A DNA stretch of 38,013 nucleotides from a virus. Both the position numbers and the translations under genes were made by a program. The DNA is taken from positions 1-38,013 of IMG/VR virus record IMGVR_UViG_3300033141_005271; one strand, given 5' to 3'. This document shows, piece by piece, positions 8,419 through 24,100 of the stretch (the stretch's first letter is position 1; every line of letters starts with the position of its first letter). The notes beneath the pieces are model-generated. The model was not told the DNA's origin. It was given only the letters and a program-made list of their open reading frames with translations, and did not search any database.

Positions 8419-11400
8419 CTATAATTCTAATTTTTCCAATTCACCCCAAACATTTCCTAATTTTATATCAACCTTTATTGGAACATTCACAAAATCAAAA
8501 TGTGAAAAATCTTCCATTAAAAGTTTTGCATTTACAATTATATCCATAAATTCATCTTTCGTAGCATCAATCAAAATAGAATCATGAACATCAGCTATAA
8601 TTTTTGATTCCAATTGATTTTCTCTCATCCATTTCCACAACCTAGCCTCAGCATCAAAAACCAAATCTCTCGCAGTTGAATTATGAGAAACAACATTATA
8701 AATCATAAATGAATGGTCAAAATCATCAACACATAAATCATACATATCAATAACTTGATTCATATCTTGTATATCAATTATTTTTATTCTATAATAATCA
8801 TTATGTTTTTCTCTATTAATAGAATAATACGCAGATACAACATTCCAAAGTTTTTTCTTTTTTTCTGATACTAAAGGCAAATCCAACATTACTGCATCTT
8901 TTAAACACAAAATAACTCTATAAGGAATTTTATGATTCTTTTTTGATGGTTTAAGCTCTCTAATTGTGCTTCTACACCCAACAGAATTAAGTAATAAAAA
9001 AATATCATTAGCCAATCCTTTGCTAACAGTTGTATAACAAAATGAAAAACCATTACTAGTTGTTCCTGTAATACCTCCATCTGAATCAAAAAGTCCTGCC
9101 AACAGAGCCAAACGAAACTCTATTGGTGCTGTAAACAACCAAATTGGAATTCTTTTTTTATCTGCAACAACACGAAACAACCCTAATTTTATAAGCCATT
9201 TTCGAAAAGAAAAATATTCAACACGACCACGCCAATATGACAAATTTCCTTGATATTTAAAAAGTTTCCAATGTGGACTCATTCCATATGATTTCCAAAT
9301 TGAGTCTATTTTATATTTTATTGTCATTGATTCAGAAAAACCTATTGAAACATCTACTCCATTTTTATGTCCATAACTCCCATTACCAATTAAAAATCCA
9401 AGCATCCATGTATCATCAATAGTTGGAACAGAATGAAAAATTAAAGCATTTGATCTTATAATATTAGAATTACAACAATTAGAAGTTTTAAAAATGTCAG
9501 AAGAAACAAGATTATTCGGAAGTTTTCCATTAATAACTTTCGTTGCACTGCTTTTCAAATAATCACCACTTCTCAACTCTTTAACTTTTTTCCAAGTGCC
9601 ATTTTCTAACATAAACTTATGGTCTTTAGAAGCAGAAATTACATAACCTCTATCTGTATAAATCCTAAATTCTCTCTGTTTTTTCCTCCCAACATCAATA
9701 ACATTAGTCCACTTTTTTCCAGACCAAACTTTATCACCAATCTTTATGGTACTAATAGGTCTATACCCAAAATTAGTTAAAACTGGTGTATTACCACTTA
9801 AACACTGAATCGGGTAATTTACAGCCATATTATAGATATGCTTTTTCTCTTTTTCACTCATTCCATTATAAACAGAAAATTTCCATTTTCGACCAAAAAA
9901 TGTAGTTATATACTTACCATCTTCAACTCTATATTGCATCTCCATAATAAAGTCTTTCACTTTTGGATAACGAGACAAAAAAGTGTCAATTCTCCTTTGT
10001 GCCTCACGTTCTGAAATCTTCAACTGCTTTGAAAGACTATAAGCAGAAATCCCATATACAATCCCAAAATTAATTGTTTTCGCTTCAACCCTTTGTTTAG
10101 TTTTTTTCTCATCTGATAGATTAGAATTATCACCAAAAATAGCAAAACGAGTTTCTTCATGAATATCTTTTCCATTTTGAAATGCGTTGATAAGAACATC
10201 ATCCTGTGAAAAAAATGCTAGAGTTCGAAGCTCAAGCTGTGAAAAATCAATTTCTATTAAATGGCTTCTCTTAGCCGTAAACACTTTTCGTATTCCATAA
10301 GGAATGTTTTGTAGATTTGGTTTCTTACATGCCAACCTCCCAGTAGCAGTTCTGCTTGTTAAATACTCAGCATATATAATTCCGTTGATATTAACTTCAT
10401 TATATGGTTCCAAATAAGTTCCACTTATTTTTTCCAATTCTCTGTGCTTTAATAAATCCCCAATAAATGGATGTTTATTTTTGATTAATTTTAAAGTATC
10501 CTTATCTGTAGCAATTTGACCTGACTTAGATGTTTTTTTCTCTGGGGCTATTCCCAAAACTTTCAATACCTCACCCAATTGTTTTGGTGATCTAAAATTT
10601 ATTAATTTCTTATTCTTCTCTTCTATTTTCTCAATTGCATCATAAGAATGCATTTTCTCTTCTAATTTTTGCAAATTTTCCAAATATTCTTTTGATATTT
10701 TCTCCAAATTTTCTTCATGCAATCTCATTCCATCAAGTTCCATTTCACTTAAAACAATACTTGCAGGAGACAAAACTCTCATTAGCAGATAAACTTGTGC
10801 ATCACTTAAAAGTTCAAACAATTTAAACATAACTAAATAAGTCACAAATGAATCTAAAATACAATATTGAGCAACATCACTTATTGGTTTTTTTCTTAAA
10901 TTTCGTACATCAAGAACTCCATACCCACCATAATCTGTATATTTCCATGCCATACTCTTCAAACTTTGTGGATCTCTTTCTCCAACATAGAGATAATGAC
11001 CAATTTTAGTATCAAATTTGAAATTTAAAACATCAATTCCAAAACAATACTTCAACCATTTAACATCAAATTTTCCATTTTGCCCAACAGAAAAAATTTC
11101 AGAAGAAGAAAAAATATGTGCTATTGAATCCATTACTTCCTGACTATTATCATAAAAAGGACTTTCAGGATGCTGAAGAGGCAAAACCCAATTCTTATCT
11201 TTTCCACTCCCAAACGAAAAACTAATCATCAAAACTTGAGGATTATCAAGTTTCTGAGGTTCCAATCCTGTAGTTTCCAAATCAAAAGCAAAACAAGGTT
11301 CATTTTTTAATGCATCCAAAAAATCATTAACTTTTTCTTTTGTATCAATGAATGTATATTGAATATTCTTATCTACATCTAACCAAGTTTTTACTTTACT

Positions 11401-11901
11401 CAAATCCTGTTTGAACTGTTCTGATGTTTTTGGATTATAATTTCTTAACACATATGATGGATGATATGTTGCAAAATAATTATATTCATTTCCTGCAAAT
11501 CCATACCCTCGATAGAGTGTTATTCCTTTTTTGTTTAAAAGTGAAGACATTGGTGTATTACCAAGAAGAACAACAAGACCTTTAAAACCTTCAAGTTCCT
11601 GAAGCAAGTATTTACTACAACATCTCATTTCAGATGTAGTTGGAGTTCTATTATTCAAAGGTCGGCATCTACAAATATTGGCAAATACAACATCATTCTC
11701 ATCTATTCCAACTTCTTTCATTGTCAAACGAAGAAGTTGCCCAGCTCTTCCAACAAATGGTTTTCCTTGTTTTTCCTCATCTGCTCCTGGTGCCTCACCA
11801 ACAAAAACAACTTTAGCTGTTTTATAATTACCATAAGAATGAACTACAATCTTATCATCAGTATTTAATGGACATTTTTTACAAAAATCAATAGAAGTCA
11901 T
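8419..11901 (-). CDS. Uracil-DNA glycosylase (family 4)-DNA polymerase I fusion, interrupted by an intein
   Basis: 1160 aa. Residues 1-175 form a family 4 UDG with iron-sulfur Cys (C7, C10, C79, C94/95), GEAPGADEEKQGKPFVGRAG, CRCRPLNNR and HPSYVLR. A 3'-5' exonuclease follows, beginning FAFDLETTG near residue 204. The family A polymerase comes next, with DFSQLELRTLAFFS (motif A), RVEAKTINFGIVYGIS (motif B) and ADVHDSILID (motif C). An intein of 375 residues (700-1074) splits NYPIQ from STARDLVFD, so the spliced enzyme is 785 aa. Phage SPO1 polymerase has a comparable UDG-like N-terminal domain. The ATG overlaps the previous stop (ATGA). This is the likely replicative polymerase. Confidence 0.93.
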   Translation of the reverse strand: MTSIDFCKKCPLNTDDKIVVHSYGNYKTAKVVFVGEAPGADEEKQGKPFVGRAGQLLRLTMKEVGIDENDVVFANICRCRPLNNRTPTTSEMRCCSKYLLQELEGFKGLVVLLGNTPMSSLLNKKGITLYRGYGFAGNEYNYFATYHPSYVLRNYNPKTSEQFKQDLSKVKTWLDVDKNIQYTFIDTKEKVNDFLDALKNEPCFAFDLETTGLEPQKLDNPQVLMISFSFGSGKDKNWVLPLQHPESPFYDNSQEVMDSIAHIFSSSEIFSVGQNGKFDVKWLKYCFGIDVLNFKFDTKIGHYLYVGERDPQSLKSMAWKYTDYGGYGVLDVRNLRKKPISDVAQYCILDSFVTYLVMFKLFELLSDAQVYLLMRVLSPASIVLSEMELDGMRLHEENLEKISKEYLENLQKLEEKMHSYDAIEKIEEKNKKLINFRSPKQLGEVLKVLGIAPEKKTSKSGQIATDKDTLKLIKNKHPFIGDLLKHRELEKISGTYLEPYNEVNINGIIYAEYLTSRTATGRLACKKPNLQNIPYGIRKVFTAKRSHLIEIDFSQLELRTLAFFSQDDVLINAFQNGKDIHEETRFAIFGDNSNLSDEKKTKQRVEAKTINFGIVYGISAYSLSKQLKISEREAQRRIDTFLSRYPKVKDFIMEMQYRVEDGKYITTFFGRKWKFSVYNGMSEKEKKHIYNMAVNYPIQCLSGNTPVLTNFGYRPISTIKIGDKVWSGKKWTNVIDVGRKKQREFRIYTDRGYVISASKDHKFMLENGTWKKVKELRSGDYLKSSATKVINGKLPNNLVSSDIFKTSNCCNSNIIRSNALIFHSVPTIDDTWMLGFLIGNGSYGHKNGVDVSIGFSESMTIKYKIDSIWKSYGMSPHWKLFKYQGNLSYWRGRVEYFSFRKWLIKLGLFRVVADKKRIPIWLFTAPIEFRLALLAGLFDSDGGITGTTSNGFSFCYTTVSKGLANDIFLLLNSVGCRSTIRELKPSKKNHKIPYRVILCLKDAVMLDLPLVSEKKKKLWNVVSAYYSINREKHNDYYRIKIIDIQDMNQVIDMYDLCVDDFDHSFMIYNVVSHNSTARDLVFDAEARLWKWMRENQLESKIIADVHDSILIDATKDEFMDIIVNAKLLMEDFSHFDFVNVPIKVDIKLGNVWGELEKLEL
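8680..9804 (-). mobile_element. Intein with LAGLIDADG homing endonuclease in DNA polymerase
   Basis: 375 residues. Block A starts CLSGNTPVLT (Cys1), block B has SASKDHKFM, and two LAGLIDADG motifs are present (WMLGFLIGNGSYG and ALLAGLFDSDGGI). The C-terminus reads DHSFMIYNVVSHN followed by Ser as the first downstream extein residue. All splicing residues (Cys1, penultimate His, Asn, Ser+1) are present, so a class 1 intein able to splice is expected. It is inserted next to the conserved polymerase segment NYPIQ/STARD, corresponding to NFPIQGTAAD in bacterial Pol I. The endonuclease acidic residues look intact. Confidence 0.93.
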
Positions 11902-19884: not shown

Positions 19885-20268
19885 CTAATTGCTTATTTGC
19901 AATCTCCTTTCCAATGATACCATGAATTTTTTTATATCCTTCTCTGGTGTATGAAAGATATTCATAATCTGTCCTTTTTCTAAATATTTACAGTAAACAT
20001 TAATTCCAGTTGCTGATTTTTGTATAATAATATTCATTTGTGGATCTTGTTCCTGTGTTGCTAAATTAGCTTCTTTGGTGGTTATAATTATTCCAGAATT
20101 CTTATCACTATTGACAATTGTAAAACCAACATCATTAGCAGCTAACATGGAAGCGTTCCAAACCTGATCAAATGTCTTTCCATCAAATATTGTACTATCT
20201 GTTTTTATGTTTTGAATAGCACAACATACCATAAAAGCTAACAAAATGCAAATAATCTTTGGTTTCAT
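19885..20268 (-). CDS. Predicted exported lipoprotein, 127 aa
   Basis: A signal peptide (MKPKIICILLAFMVCCAIQ) with positive residues, a hydrophobic core and a Cys in a lipobox-like FMVC/VCC context suggests lipid anchoring after secretion. The mature part (FDGKTFDQVWNASMLAANDV then GFTIVNSDKNSGIIIT) resembles bacterial periplasmic or outer-membrane lipoproteins, with strand-helix-strand repeats. A secreted lipoprotein is unexpected between replication genes; superinfection exclusion or envelope modification is possible. Its ATG overlaps the helicase stop (ATGA). Confidence 0.75.
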   Translation of the reverse strand: MKPKIICILLAFMVCCAIQNIKTDSTIFDGKTFDQVWNASMLAANDVGFTIVNSDKNSGIIITTKEANLATQEQDPQMNIIIQKSATGINVYCKYLEKGQIMNIFHTPEKDIKKFMVSLERRLQISN

Positions 20269-22703
20269 TTTAAATACTCCTCATTTCTATAGATTTCAAT
20301 TCGTCTTTTTGAATGCTTTGATAGATATTTCCATCCAATATCATTAAAATCATATACTATCAGACGACCTCCATCTTTCTTTTTTCTTAAACCACGTCCA
20401 GTTTCTTGAATTACTACAGCTTCTGCCTTTCCACCACTTGCTTTTATCAGAACATTTATCTCTGGTATATCAACACCTTCAGAGAATATTGATGAAGATA
20501 TCATGATAAAATCACCTTTATCATTGAATCTTTTCTTCATTTTTTCCCTTTTCCAAGTCTCTGATATACCATGAAGAAAAACTGCTGGAACATTTTGCCC
20601 CTGGCTTAACATTCGCTGTAGGATCTTACCATGCTCAATCATTCTGACTAAAATTAAAACTTTATCACCTCTAGTGAAATGATCTTTAGCTGTATACACA
20701 ATCTTTTGATTTCTTCCTTCATGTTTTACTATTCCATATTCATATTCTCTTTGCCAACTTAAAGGAATTGCCTCTAGTTCTAATGGCTTATGAGAATCAA
20801 GTATTCTAACTTCAATATCACTTAAATGCCCCTCATCTATTCCTTCTTTTGCCAATTTACTATATACAATTGGACCAGTAATTGCCATAAGTTTCATGTT
20901 TGCCAGATTATCTCTACGAAATGGAGTTCCGCTTAATCCAAATCTGTAATGACAATTATGCATATACATTCCAACTCTATAAAAAGTTGTAGAGCTGGCA
21001 TGATGACACTCATCCCAAAATCCAACATAAAATGAATTTAAAAATTGTTTGAATCGTTGTCTATTTTTGTTAAACCAACTATCTAAAGTTTGGAAAGTGG
21101 CTATAACTATGTCGGAATCCAAACCTATCTCATTAGAATCCCCAATCTTTCCCAAGCTCTTTCCAGATAGCCTTTTTTTATAACGTTCATAGGTTTGGTT
21201 AAGTAATTCCTTTCTGTGAACAAGGAACAATGTTCGCTTTTCAAGGAATTTTGTTGTAGCTATAGCCACTTCTGTATTATGTGTTGGTATAAAATTATCT
21301 GTTACATACATATGTTCTTGATTATTAAGAAGTATGCAACAACATTCTTTTTTACCAACATATTTTATTGTTTGAATCATTCTTGAATTCCATTTTCCAT
21401 TTCTTTTAGCAAATAATAATTTCTTTCTTTGTAATCGAAAAATATTTGGACCAATACCACCACTAATATAAACAACATAACATCGTTTTCCTATCTTTCT
21501 TTTTCCTTTATATAAATAAGTTGTGGTTTTATATTTAATTCGACATATATATCCTAAAGACTCAGCAATTTCTTTTACATCATTTGCAAGTTGTTTTGAC
21601 GTTGAATAAAATTCAGCCCCTCCAGCACCATTTTTTGGCATATAACCATCTGTATCCATTAATCCTTGTAAGATACTGAGTCTAACTTCTTTACTATTAT
21701 ACTTATAATCTAAAGGAATAAATTTGTTATCAGAATGTTTATTTTCTAAACCATAATATCTAATAGCATCAAGGTAATAATTAGACTTACCACCTTGTCT
21801 TTTACATTTAGCAATATAATAATCATATTTACCACAAGGTTTTAATTCATATTCTAAAGAAATAATTTTTCTAATAGAATTAAGAATCTCTTCATCTTTA
21901 TTTGAAAATCCTATCATATCATGTCCAAACTTACCATCTCCCAATAAAATGCCCATTAAATATGGATCTATTTTCACTTTTCGTGGTTTAAATGAAATAT
22001 TTGTTATTGGATAAATCTGATAAATTGGTCGTTTATTTTTAATATATTTTCCAAAAATATCTTTAAGTTCTATTATCTTTTGATGATGTTTCCAATTAAT
22101 TTTGCTAGCAACTTTCCACAAATGATTCTCTGTACATTCAACAGTATCTCCATTAGAAAATCCAATCTGATAAATTGATAATTTTCCTTGTGGAAAGACT
22201 CCAATTACTTTAGCAGTAGAACCATTTGGTGTTACAACTTCATCACCAATTTTAATATCTCTCATATATGTAACACCAGTTGGTGTATAAATTTTAGAAT
22301 CAAGTGGTTGAGCCTTTCCTAATCCAGTTGCTAATTCAATAATACCTCTTCCATTTTTTATTGCTGAATTAATTGCTTCTATTTGATAGTTTCTAAGGGT
22401 AATTTCGTTTAAGTAATCAGCTTTAATAATCTCTAAATTTAGTGTATCCTTTGATAACGACCTGTGGTCAAAAACTTTATGTTCAATATTTTTTTCTTTA
22501 AAATAATCTATCACTATTGAGAGAAGTCCTGTTGGAAACTTACATGTTGGAAGTTTTAAAAAATGGTATCTTCCGTCATCCCATCCTTCTTTGTAACCTT
22601 TTGTAAACCAATAATTAGGCTTGTAAACAGCCAAAAGCTGTTCCAACTCCTCAGTATAATCAGATAAAACTGAATAGACATTACGAACATGTATTTCAAT
22701 CAT
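20265..22703 (-). CDS. Superfamily 2 DNA helicase (UvsW-like), interrupted by an intein in Walker A
   Basis: 812 aa before splicing, 466 after. Seen: ITLRNYQIEAINSA (Q-like motif), ELATGLGK then the intein then TEVAIATTKF (motif I, GKT), FWDECHHASS (motif II), RFGLSGTPFR (motif III), FIMISSSIFSEGVDIP (motif V) and VIQETGRGLRKK (motif VI). The N-terminal domain (about 100 residues) resembles UvsW-like helicases, which unwind branched recombination intermediates. The intein covers residues 131-476 and interrupts the ATP-binding loop, so the precursor cannot hydrolyse ATP. The start follows a long hairpin at 22729-22810. Confidence 0.9.
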   Translation of the reverse strand: MIEIHVRNVYSVLSDYTEELEQLLAVYKPNYWFTKGYKEGWDDGRYHFLKLPTCKFPTGLLSIVIDYFKEKNIEHKVFDHRSLSKDTLNLEIIKADYLNEITLRNYQIEAINSAIKNGRGIIELATGLGKAQPLDSKIYTPTGVTYMRDIKIGDEVVTPNGSTAKVIGVFPQGKLSIYQIGFSNGDTVECTENHLWKVASKINWKHHQKIIELKDIFGKYIKNKRPIYQIYPITNISFKPRKVKIDPYLMGILLGDGKFGHDMIGFSNKDEEILNSIRKIISLEYELKPCGKYDYYIAKCKRQGGKSNYYLDAIRYYGLENKHSDNKFIPLDYKYNSKEVRLSILQGLMDTDGYMPKNGAGGAEFYSTSKQLANDVKEIAESLGYICRIKYKTTTYLYKGKRKIGKRCYVVYISGGIGPNIFRLQRKKLLFAKRNGKWNSRMIQTIKYVGKKECCCILLNNQEHMYVTDNFIPTHNTEVAIATTKFLEKRTLFLVHRKELLNQTYERYKKRLSGKSLGKIGDSNEIGLDSDIVIATFQTLDSWFNKNRQRFKQFLNSFYVGFWDECHHASSTTFYRVGMYMHNCHYRFGLSGTPFRRDNLANMKLMAITGPIVYSKLAKEGIDEGHLSDIEVRILDSHKPLELEAIPLSWQREYEYGIVKHEGRNQKIVYTAKDHFTRGDKVLILVRMIEHGKILQRMLSQGQNVPAVFLHGISETWKREKMKKRFNDKGDFIMISSSIFSEGVDIPEINVLIKASGGKAEAVVIQETGRGLRKKKDGGRLIVYDFNDIGWKYLSKHSKRRIEIYRNEEYLK
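21276..22313 (-). mobile_element. Intein with LAGLIDADG endonuclease in the helicase Walker A motif
   Basis: 346 residues inserted exactly between GLGK and T of the P-loop. It starts AQPLDSKIYTPTG, so residue 1 is Ala and not Cys or Ser. Block B is ECTENHLWKV, with Trp two residues after the His, and the C-terminus is YVTDNFIPTHN followed by Thr. Two LAGLIDADG motifs (LMGILLGDGKFG and ILQGLMDTDGYM) mark the homing endonuclease. Ala1 means it must use a class 2 or 3 type splicing route. The block B Trp fits the class 3 WCT set, but no block F Cys is evident. Confidence 0.92.
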
Positions 22704-23113: not shown

Positions 23114-23277
23114 ATCAAGATCTCCTTTCGATTGATATAACAAGTATTTTTACAATCAAATATTCTCAAAATATTTCCTTCTTTATCTTTCTCAACTCCA
23201 TGATATTTCAATTTGCATCCTTGACATCGATTAAATTTAATTCTAGTAACTGGTATATTCCTTCGTTTTTTACTCAT
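23110..23277 (-). CDS. Small basic zinc-ribbon-like protein, 55 aa
   Basis: MSKKRRNIPVTRIKF is followed by NRCQGCKLKYHG and IFDCKNTCYIN. The four Cys form two pairs about 25 residues apart, as in a zinc ribbon. A basic N-terminus suits nucleic-acid binding. The start shares a base with the previous stop (TAATG) and the stop overlaps the next start (ATGA), which strongly supports the gene. Confidence 0.7.
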   Translation of the reverse strand: MSKKRRNIPVTRIKFNRCQGCKLKYHGVEKDKEGNILRIFDCKNTCYINRKEILI

Positions 23278-23888
23278 TACACGAGTAAATTCAATATACT
23301 ATCTTTTTCCAAAGCCTCTGGTGAAAGATCTATAACATTCTCATTTTTTTCTCTAACAATCTCAGCACCTGCTTTTATCAAAATATCTTCTAAACTAATT
23401 GTATGTTCATAAAAATCAAAAAGATACTGACGACTGTGATCGGAAAGTTTTGATTTCTTTGATGATATTGAATTTCCAATACTTGTCTCAACAAAATAAA
23501 ATCTACATTCCTCTGTAGTCGTAACAACTAATCCAAGTATTTTTTGTTTTTTATTAATTTTTGTAGATTCTGTTACAATTAAGTTATTTGGATTTACCAT
23601 ATAATTTTTTCCAAAATCTGTCACATATTCTCTAGCTACAATTATCTTAAATGGAACTTCTGTATCCTCTTTAAAATTAAAATAATTGACATATAAGATA
23701 TTAGATCCTTTTCTCTGTCTCTTTACAAAAAATAGCTCTGTTGCTCCATTTGGCTTAGGAGCAGCAGTAACATCTCCAGAAAAAATAAATCCTTTTGGGA
23801 TAGTCCTTTTCATAAGATTTTTGTCTATAGTTTGATGAGATGATGATTCAATTGGAAGAGCTTTAAAAAGTCTAAGTGTCGATCTCAT
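23277..23888 (-). CDS. Hypothetical protein, 203 aa, preceded by tandem RNA hairpins
   Basis: Unrecognised. It begins MRSTLRLFKALPIES; the middle is beta-rich (ILYVNYFNFKEDTEVPFKII) and the C-terminus is a helical, acidic segment (LEDILIKAGAEIVREKNEN). No catalytic motif is visible. AAGGAG lies six bases before the ATG. The three covarying hairpins at 23906-24100 are in its leader, so its expression may be controlled by that RNA. Confidence 0.77.
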   Translation of the reverse strand: MRSTLRLFKALPIESSSHQTIDKNLMKRTIPKGFIFSGDVTAAPKPNGATELFFVKRQRKGSNILYVNYFNFKEDTEVPFKIIVAREYVTDFGKNYMVNPNNLIVTESTKINKKQKILGLVVTTTEECRFYFVETSIGNSISSKKSKLSDHSRQYLFDFYEHTISLEDILIKAGAEIVREKNENVIDLSPEALEKDSILNLLV

Positions 23889-23905
23889 AGTAACTCCTTT
23901 TTAAA

Positions 23906-24100
23906 GATAGCGAGTAGTAAAATAATTATCAATAGATAGGAACTACTTTTTGCTATCATTGGGTACACTCTCTTTATATGGCGAACAGTAAATTAAATAA
24001 TACCTGATTATTAAATAGGAACTGTTTATGCCATTTAATTCTAAAGTTTAAAAGTTGCGAATAGTAAGATAACCTTTCAATAGGAACTATTTTTGCAACT
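23906..24100 (-). ncRNA. Three tandem covarying hairpins in a 5' leader (unknown RNA motif)
   Basis: Units lie at 23906-23957, 23978-24034 and 24053-24100. Each has two stacked stems. Outer stems (plus-strand reading) are GATAGC/GCTATC, ATGGC/GCCAT and AGTTGC/GCAACT. Inner stems are GTAGT/ACTAC, ACAGT/ACTGT and ATAGT/ACTAT. Sequence changes in both stems are compensated. Unpaired parts are conserved: GA between the 5' strands, a four- or five-base U-rich run between the 3' strands, and a loop ending in TAGGA. On the transcribed (minus) strand the inner loop starts TCCTAT and the bulge reads TC. The array ends 18 bases before the ATG of the 203-aa gene. It could be a tandem riboswitch-like element, a translational operator or processing sites. 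It matches no family I can name. Confidence 0.82.

Follow-up and report, generated by a model that had tools for sequence, protein, structure and literature searches.

In Salmonella, Ro60, tRNA-mimicking Y RNAs and RtcBA are encoded in one operon that is induced by tRNA fragments, and such rsr-yrlBA-rtcBA operons are the known parallel to the RNA module with RtcB neighbours described below (PMC7790460). Other RNAs have been reported around phage tRNAs: theta ribozymes, which are HDV-like double pseudoknots, lie next to them (PMC10879173), and the tRNAs of Lak megaphages carry introns, insertions of unknown type without an Rfam class (Devoto 2019, PMC6784885). For the TerD fold, which also enters the comparison, a role as a binder of nucleotide derivatives has been proposed in systems of stress and conflict (PMC7159879).

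The window, i.e. the whole stretch of viral DNA analysed here (IMG/VR record IMGVR_UViG_3300033141_005271, 38,013 nucleotides), contains three hairpin units at 23906-24100, as an earlier note made from the sequence alone had stated and as direct reading of the sequence confirmed. The array is flanked by genes for 130 and 203 aa and constitutes the 5′ leader of the latter (Table 1). A pattern describing the unit matched three times in the window, compared with 0.00 expected in shuffles. A covariance model built from 45 relatives, with the window excluded (R1), recovered exactly these three units, all on the minus strand (E 8.6e-11 to 1.8e-9), with no further match in the window below E 1. Single units folded better than shuffles (z −2.3 to −5.1); the complete leader folded no better than shuffled (z −0.5). 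The Rfam search of the array returned no riboswitch, leader or other family at gathering score, in line with the earlier note, which knew of no family with this pattern. The larger genes around 18-30 kb of the window are all on the minus strand. Two genes of this phage fragment bear homing endonucleases: a uracil-DNA-glycosylase/DNA polymerase A fusion with an intein (8419-11901, minus strand) and a helicase with a LAGLIDADG insertion (20265-22703, minus strand).

Table 1. Features of the array and the adjoining gene in the window, in the order of the transcript for the RNA copies.
Feature	Position	Strand	Parts or description	Apical part	Scores or basis
RNA module copy 1, 5′-most in transcript	24053..24100	-	P1 AGUUGC/GCAACU, loop AAA/C, P2 AAUAGU/ACUAUU	UCCUAU...UU	cmsearch with R1 41.9 bits, E 1.2e-9; fold z −2.3
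RNA module copy 2	23977..24035	-	P1 AUGGC/GCCAU, loop AUA/C, P2 AACAGU/ACUGUU	AUAAU/AUUAU stem possible	cmsearch with R1 45.9 bits, E 8.6e-11; fold z −3.2
RNA module copy 3, closest to gene	23906..23957	-	P1 GAUAGC/GCUAUC, loop AAAA/C, P2 AGUAGU/ACUACU		cmsearch with R1 41.2 bits, E 1.8e-9; fold z −3.7
Shine-Dalgarno AGGAG of the 203-aa gene	23894..23898	-	7 nt after copy 3, 5 nt before ATG		read directly
203-aa gene	23277..23888	-	helical + TerD-like family member, internally deleted		window profile search, alignment
Deletion junction in the 203-aa gene	23773..23783	-	TTTTCTGGAGA (FSGD/FSGE)		alignment and pattern search

On the gene strand, the element has the form P1 - [ANA/C internal loop] - P2 - UUCCU...UA, in which the inner stem P2 has 6 bp and A-N-A stands opposite a single C. 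Written as gene-strand RNA, a window unit reads P1 - A(N)A - P2 - UCCUAU ... UU - P2′ - C - P1′. The invariant UUCCU, the U-A pair atop P2, the A-rich 5′ side and the single 3′ C are common to the three window units, the letters of P1 and P2 differ with pairing kept, and copy 3 presents one additional A in its internal loop. The repeated two-stem architecture of the earlier note was correct, but it had been read on the plus strand, and the RNA is the minus strand. The "GA bulge" of that reading is really half a base pair plus the single C of the internal loop, next to an inner stem of 6 bp. Among relatives, the near-invariant letters are few (A, C, UUCCU and the U-A pair), the leaders hold 1-6 copies each, and the apical parts, from 15 to over 90 nt, are very different. 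Described motifs were compared and set aside: the K-turn and the bulge-helix-bulge are incompatible with the 3/1 internal loop, the theta ribozyme differs in structure, and a sarcin-ricin/loop-E motif (AGUA/GAA) on the plus strand was dropped because P2 engages these letters in Watson-Crick pairs and the opposite strand is the RNA.

In an alignment of 45 diverse copies, 95.4% of the cells were paired versus 74.1 in shuffles, two-sided changes occurred in 11 of the 12 pairs and the covariation score was 0.677 compared with 0.232 shuffled and at most 0.214 slid, the P2 part of these figures being partly circular because the alignment was selected on P2 pairing. P1, to which this does not apply, was 90.7% paired with covariation in 6/6 pairs. 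Equally free of that selection is a permutation test in which partners were shuffled at loci retrieved by protein and not by motif. A fully pairing partner was present for 153 of the 186 UUCCU-strand sites in the viral loci versus 25.0 shuffled (maximum 39 in 1000 shuffles) and for 102 of 146 in the cellular loci versus 35.7 (maximum 48 in 1000). The two-sided changes and the permutation test bear out the claim of a selected RNA structure with covariation. Among single non-Watson-Crick cells of P2 on the gene strand, G-U pairs numbered 25 and A-C/C-A 4. This bias, together with the leader copies being all on the gene strand and the orientation of the tRNA-embedded copies, establishes that the RNA is the minus strand, the same as that of the adjacent gene.

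The exact pattern matched in 59 viral contig stretches, with stems compensating in nearly all of them, and an open frame of ~600 aa repeatedly begins just behind the module in these loci; about 29 open frames near the module constitute one protein family. A covariance-model search of the kind proposed in the earlier note, here with the model from the 45 relatives (Infernal cmsearch), gave further copies in phage records and cellular loci. The family protein was used as an independent probe, the fetched sets not being selected by motif. Eighty viral loci were fetched of 188 relatives, and 80 cellular loci of the 207 relatives that genome assemblies of bacteria and archaea contained. Under a strict definition, a copy was present in the 700-nt leader of 62/80 viral and 69/80 cellular loci, the latter rising to 73/80 under a slightly wider one. 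On the gene strand, these leaders held 160 viral and 104 cellular copies (264 in ~111 kb), compared with none on the opposite strand of the same leaders, while the gene plus downstream sequence (~711 kb, over six times longer) held 12 + 1 copies on the same strand. With R1, four large phage records totalling 578 kb gave 14 matches, each of them adjoining the family gene, and 28 cellular loci gave 46, all on the gene strand and 5′ of the gene. The family protein is encoded in 13 of 16 module-bearing records, the remaining three being fragments of 12-74 kb.

The linkage of the module to this one gene family is almost exclusive, and the window array represents a widespread structured RNA, present here three times, which makes up one genetic unit with the protein whose gene directly follows. 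The suggested link to the adjacent gene of unknown function was supported; phage specificity was not, since 69 to 73 of the 80 cellular loci carry the module. The cellular hosts comprise Chryseobacterium chromosomes, Selenomonadaceae, Erysipelotrichaceae, Ktedonobacter, Marinicella, Desulfobacterales and archaeal assemblies, some of whose contigs may be phages or misbinned. Cultured carriers of both array and family gene are the cyanophage S-CRM01 and strains of Chryseobacterium. The family gene of Chryseobacterium indologenes AA5 has TAA at codon 5 (L287 2860-2900), which other Chryseobacterium lack, and may therefore be inactive in that strain. The plasmid collection searched held no relative. 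A search with the 203-aa protein alone found none either, because this protein is internally deleted, and the full-length relatives were reached through the motif.

Full-length members of the family have ~580-690 aa, with a helical N-terminus followed by a TerD-like domain. In Foldseek searches with the AlphaFold model of one of them (mean pLDDT 91), the C-terminal ~200 residues matched the TerD structures 3ibz (E 8e-5, TM by target 0.59) and 2qng (E 3.5e-4, TM by target 0.58). The Pfam search of the family gave no TerD match, so that TerD membership is by fold and not by sequence. The helical N-terminal ~400 residues had no significant match in the PDB, Ro60 included, and distant full-length fold relatives are present in Campylobacter and Lactobacillus phages. 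A weak match to the MXAN_6230/SCO0854 RING-TerD family (NCBIfam NF041916) begins ahead of the TerD-like region and runs into it (E 8e-4 to 2e-2), at 13-18 bits compared with a curated cut-off of 600, and no RING domain was seen in the phage proteins. Residues ~1-37 of the 203-aa protein match the family N-terminus and the remainder matches profile positions 460-625, in the TerD-like C-terminus, which corresponds to an in-frame internal loss of ~425 residues at an FSG repeat. In relatives, FSG flanks the segment missing here on either side, so that the short form likely arose by deletion between short repeats, as judged from the alignment; alternatively, it may be a collapse in metagenome assembly.

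Tandem RNA repeats directly upstream of a gene are also the arrangement of a type III toxin-antitoxin unit, in which a tandem RNA antitoxin accompanies an endoRNase toxin. Here, the repeats are alike in structure more than in sequence, and the gene is TerD-like with no toxin-family match. A system of the ToxN/AbiQ type was rejected as the units differ in sequence and the 203-aa protein has no match in Pfam or PADLOC, nor to a known defence or toxin family. An element acting at the DNA level is opposed by the strand-specific G-U bias. We consider it extremely improbable that the array is either of the two. Nor is the suggestion of an origin-like element supported, because the copies lie on the coding strand and adjoin one gene family only.

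The copies lie on the coding strand within the 5′ leader, often ending 7-40 nt ahead of the start codon, and this position would suit a cis-acting autoregulatory leader, whose hairpins would be operator sites on their own mRNA with no separate RNA produced. Binding of these sites, by the protein or by a small molecule that its TerD-like domain senses, would then control translation or mRNA decay, and the multiple copies would fit cooperative binding. This explanation does not account for the tRNA-like domains carried by some modules or for the modules inside tRNA genes, both described below, nor for copies outside the immediate leader: one lies directly downstream of the family gene in S-CRM01, and another is located ~1.2 kb upstream of it, between rtcB and the next gene (L226 1783-1833). 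As the whole explanation we regard it as rather unlikely, although cis autoregulation may be true in addition to a ribonucleoprotein role. A tandem riboswitch, which had also been proposed and in which a ligand would control the downstream gene, could be expected to appear as a small conserved tandem leader element with a fixed internal loop, as is seen here. It is made very unlikely by the few near-invariant unpaired letters, by the variation in copy number and apical parts and by the presence of the module inside tRNAs; moreover, only one gene family is concerned, and the leaders read have no conserved expression platform.

Fusion to tRNA takes several forms. With its strands in the opposite order, the module occurs as inserts of 29-31 nt in the anticodon arms of otherwise good tRNAs, whose bodies score 51-57 bits as tRNA. 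In the hairpin order, the copies with long heads carry circularly permuted tRNA-like domains, 3′ half first, in which the acceptor end is closed by UUCG or another short loop without CCA. S-CRM01 has such a copy at 132,220-132,333, just 5′ of its family gene, and a further one (L061 1636-1713, HQ615693.1 132,490-132,567) in which the head is reduced to a T-arm plus a short hairpin. Whole tRNAs are mounted on the module by their acceptor end at L009 3608, L023 7613 (minus strand), L036 5158, L044 706 (minus strand) and L155 623, with CCA encoded and with GNRA-type tetraloops replacing the anticodon loop. At L009 10217, L023 4668 (minus strand) and L036 2971, in large rumen phages, the module is found in a third kind of fusion, inside an acceptor plus T-arm minihelix without D or anticodon arm. 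The tRNA-like domains occur in a subset of loci (S-CRM01/L061, L086, L105, L155, L169, L014 and L222); most copies, among them the three of the window, are simple hairpins without such a head. The Rfam model of YrlA (RF02553) matched the permuted domains in 7 records at 34-40 bits, end to end in three of them, below its gathering threshold of 69 bits, and did not match the window array. When L086 2426-2538 was aligned to YrlA, the tRNA-like domain fitted and the letters of the terminal Ro60-binding stem differed.

The short heads present anticodon-loop-like 7-nt loops on stems of at least 5 bp more often than shuffles (17 vs 3.0), and in plain hairpins UGG, located some 6-8 bases ahead of the 3′ strand, is enriched (37 vs 8.9). 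In many viral cases, canonical loops reappear once the insert is taken out at 33|34 or 29|30, examples being Pro UUUGGGU, Gly CUUCCAA, Arg CUCCGGA and Thr CUGGUAA. The restored viral anticodons (L068, L076, L120, L125, L139, L054, L009 and L023) are mostly NNG with G37, corresponding to codons that start with C (Pro, Arg, Gln, Leu). This bias may stem from GG pairing with UUCC and not from decoding. A tRNA-fused copy in G010 duplicates a normal tRNA-Gln(UUG), and says little about function.

The restored loops, the scores of the interrupted tRNA bodies and the precedent of the Lak megaphage tRNA introns (PMC6784885) are all in agreement with a splicing element, the module then marking introns, ~40 nt long, in tRNA anticodon arms. 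In the permuted genes, the module would be split as a permuted intron-exon whose joining would circularise the tRNA, as happens with the permuted tRNAs of red algae but here through a new, non-BHB motif, and the leader copies would be mimics or mini-circles. The insertion sites vary (29|30, 33|34, 38|39), though, and the tRNA-fused copies of Chryseobacterium yield no sensible anticodon once the insert is removed. The G-rich anticodon bases are confounded, because the UGG enriched in plain hairpins could pair with UUCC. In addition, acceptor caps with UUCG or short loops and without CCA, and likewise GNRA tetraloops, are ill-suited to tRNA precursors, and nearly all copies are at one locus rather than spread across tRNA genes. 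We therefore hold splicing to be unlikely. A broader version would be a novel system of RNA processing that belongs to none of the known intron classes, in which the two-strand module of ~30 nt, in any circular permutation, would direct excision or joining in tRNAs, from ordinary as well as permuted genes of phages and bacteria, with the helical-TerD protein as splicing or chaperone factor, RtcB as ligase and the leader array as autoregulatory mimic; this appears quite improbable.

The RNA ligase RtcB is encoded within 3 kb in 21/80 cellular loci (18 Chryseobacterium and three from other lineages) and in one viral case, and an RlaP-type RNA-repair gene is present in one locus. RtcB neighbours are present in several lineages. 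At the level of whole genomes, RtcB was encoded in 10/10 sampled cellular genomes versus 9/14 control genomes, and in 5 of 10 phage records, the other five having none. In two unrelated bacteria, a HEAT-repeat protein gene follows the family gene (L226 4972-6624 and L230 4850-6514).

A two-strand module that tolerates any circular permutation, accompanies one protein family and carries interchangeable heads looks like a protein-docking site. Combined with the tRNA-like heads and with RtcB as a neighbour, these features make a Y-RNA-like ribonucleoprotein the best fit, and with a confidence just above even we favour the hypothesis that the array RNA and the helical, TerD-like protein form a Ro/Y-RNA-like particle, built on an unrelated protein and working in or near RtcB-type repair. 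The RtcB adjacency is mainly that of one genus and RtcB is common anyway (9/14 controls), and the leader position fits a cis-acting element equally well. In the proposed ribonucleoprotein, the RNAs would be produced from the gene's own leader and then be bound by the family protein, for which the two-stem module (ANA/C internal loop, P2, UUCCU) would be the docking site. The variable part beyond P2 would serve as a display head, in the form of a plain hairpin, a loop resembling an anticodon arm or an entire tRNA-like domain. The particle would act like bacterial Ro60 with the tRNA-mimicking Y RNA YrlA, in or near RNA repair of the RtcB type, and would hold, decoy or steer tRNA-directed enzymes; phages might deploy it against tRNA damage or host anticodon nucleases, and binding to the leader could additionally autoregulate the family gene. 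Physical binding, release as separate RNAs and the repair or anti-nuclease role are what we infer from this arrangement. Of the earlier guesses, a binding platform for a phage protein came closest; the restriction to phages did not hold. Membership of the protein in Ro60/TROVE was dropped, as neither Pfam nor fold gave a match for the family, and no TROVE was found in the window record; since the protein is not TROVE by sequence or fold, the Ro parallel is a functional analogy only.

The open-licence literature on MXAN_6230, phage tRNA introns, permuted phage tRNAs and TerD with Y RNA contains no description of this system; among open-licence papers the structured RNA is so far undescribed, and a description elsewhere is possible. 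If the ribonucleoprotein hypothesis is true, RNA partners that mimic tRNA have arisen for a protein unrelated to Ro60, by evolution with it or by re-pairing, and exist in jumbo-type phages and cultured bacteria close to RNA repair. It would provide an independent case for the purpose of Y RNAs, a named and testable function for a large unannotated protein family and a candidate answer to what the unexplained megaphage tRNA inserts are.

Permuted tRNA genes with BHB motifs, the 3′ half preceding the 5′ half, occur in the red alga Cyanidioschyzon merolae. The permuted copies described here are similarly ordered, with the halves joined by a helix; unlike the algal genes, they have a module that is not a bulge-helix-bulge and acceptor ends capped by short loops, and their splicing is only putative. 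As described (PMC6784885), the Lak megaphage tRNA inserts resemble the insertions of the module in phage tRNAs, with which they may be identical. Theta ribozymes share with the module that they are small structured RNAs associated with phage tRNAs, but the module is a hairpin with an internal loop, situated in gene leaders or inside tRNAs. A further close system is the pair of YrlA (RF02553) and Ro60 (Rsr, TROVE). The module differs from it in usually having several copies with mostly plain hairpin heads, it also occurs inside tRNAs of ordinary order, the letters of the Ro-binding stem are unmatched, and its partner is helical and TerD-like without detectable relation to TROVE. In both, the gene of the presumed protein partner adjoins the noncoding RNAs, the stem that binds the protein, putatively in our case, bears a tRNA-like domain in circular permutation whose acceptor end is closed, and RtcB is nearby. 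By this analogy, the module and its protein look like an independent, second form of the Ro/Y-RNA system.
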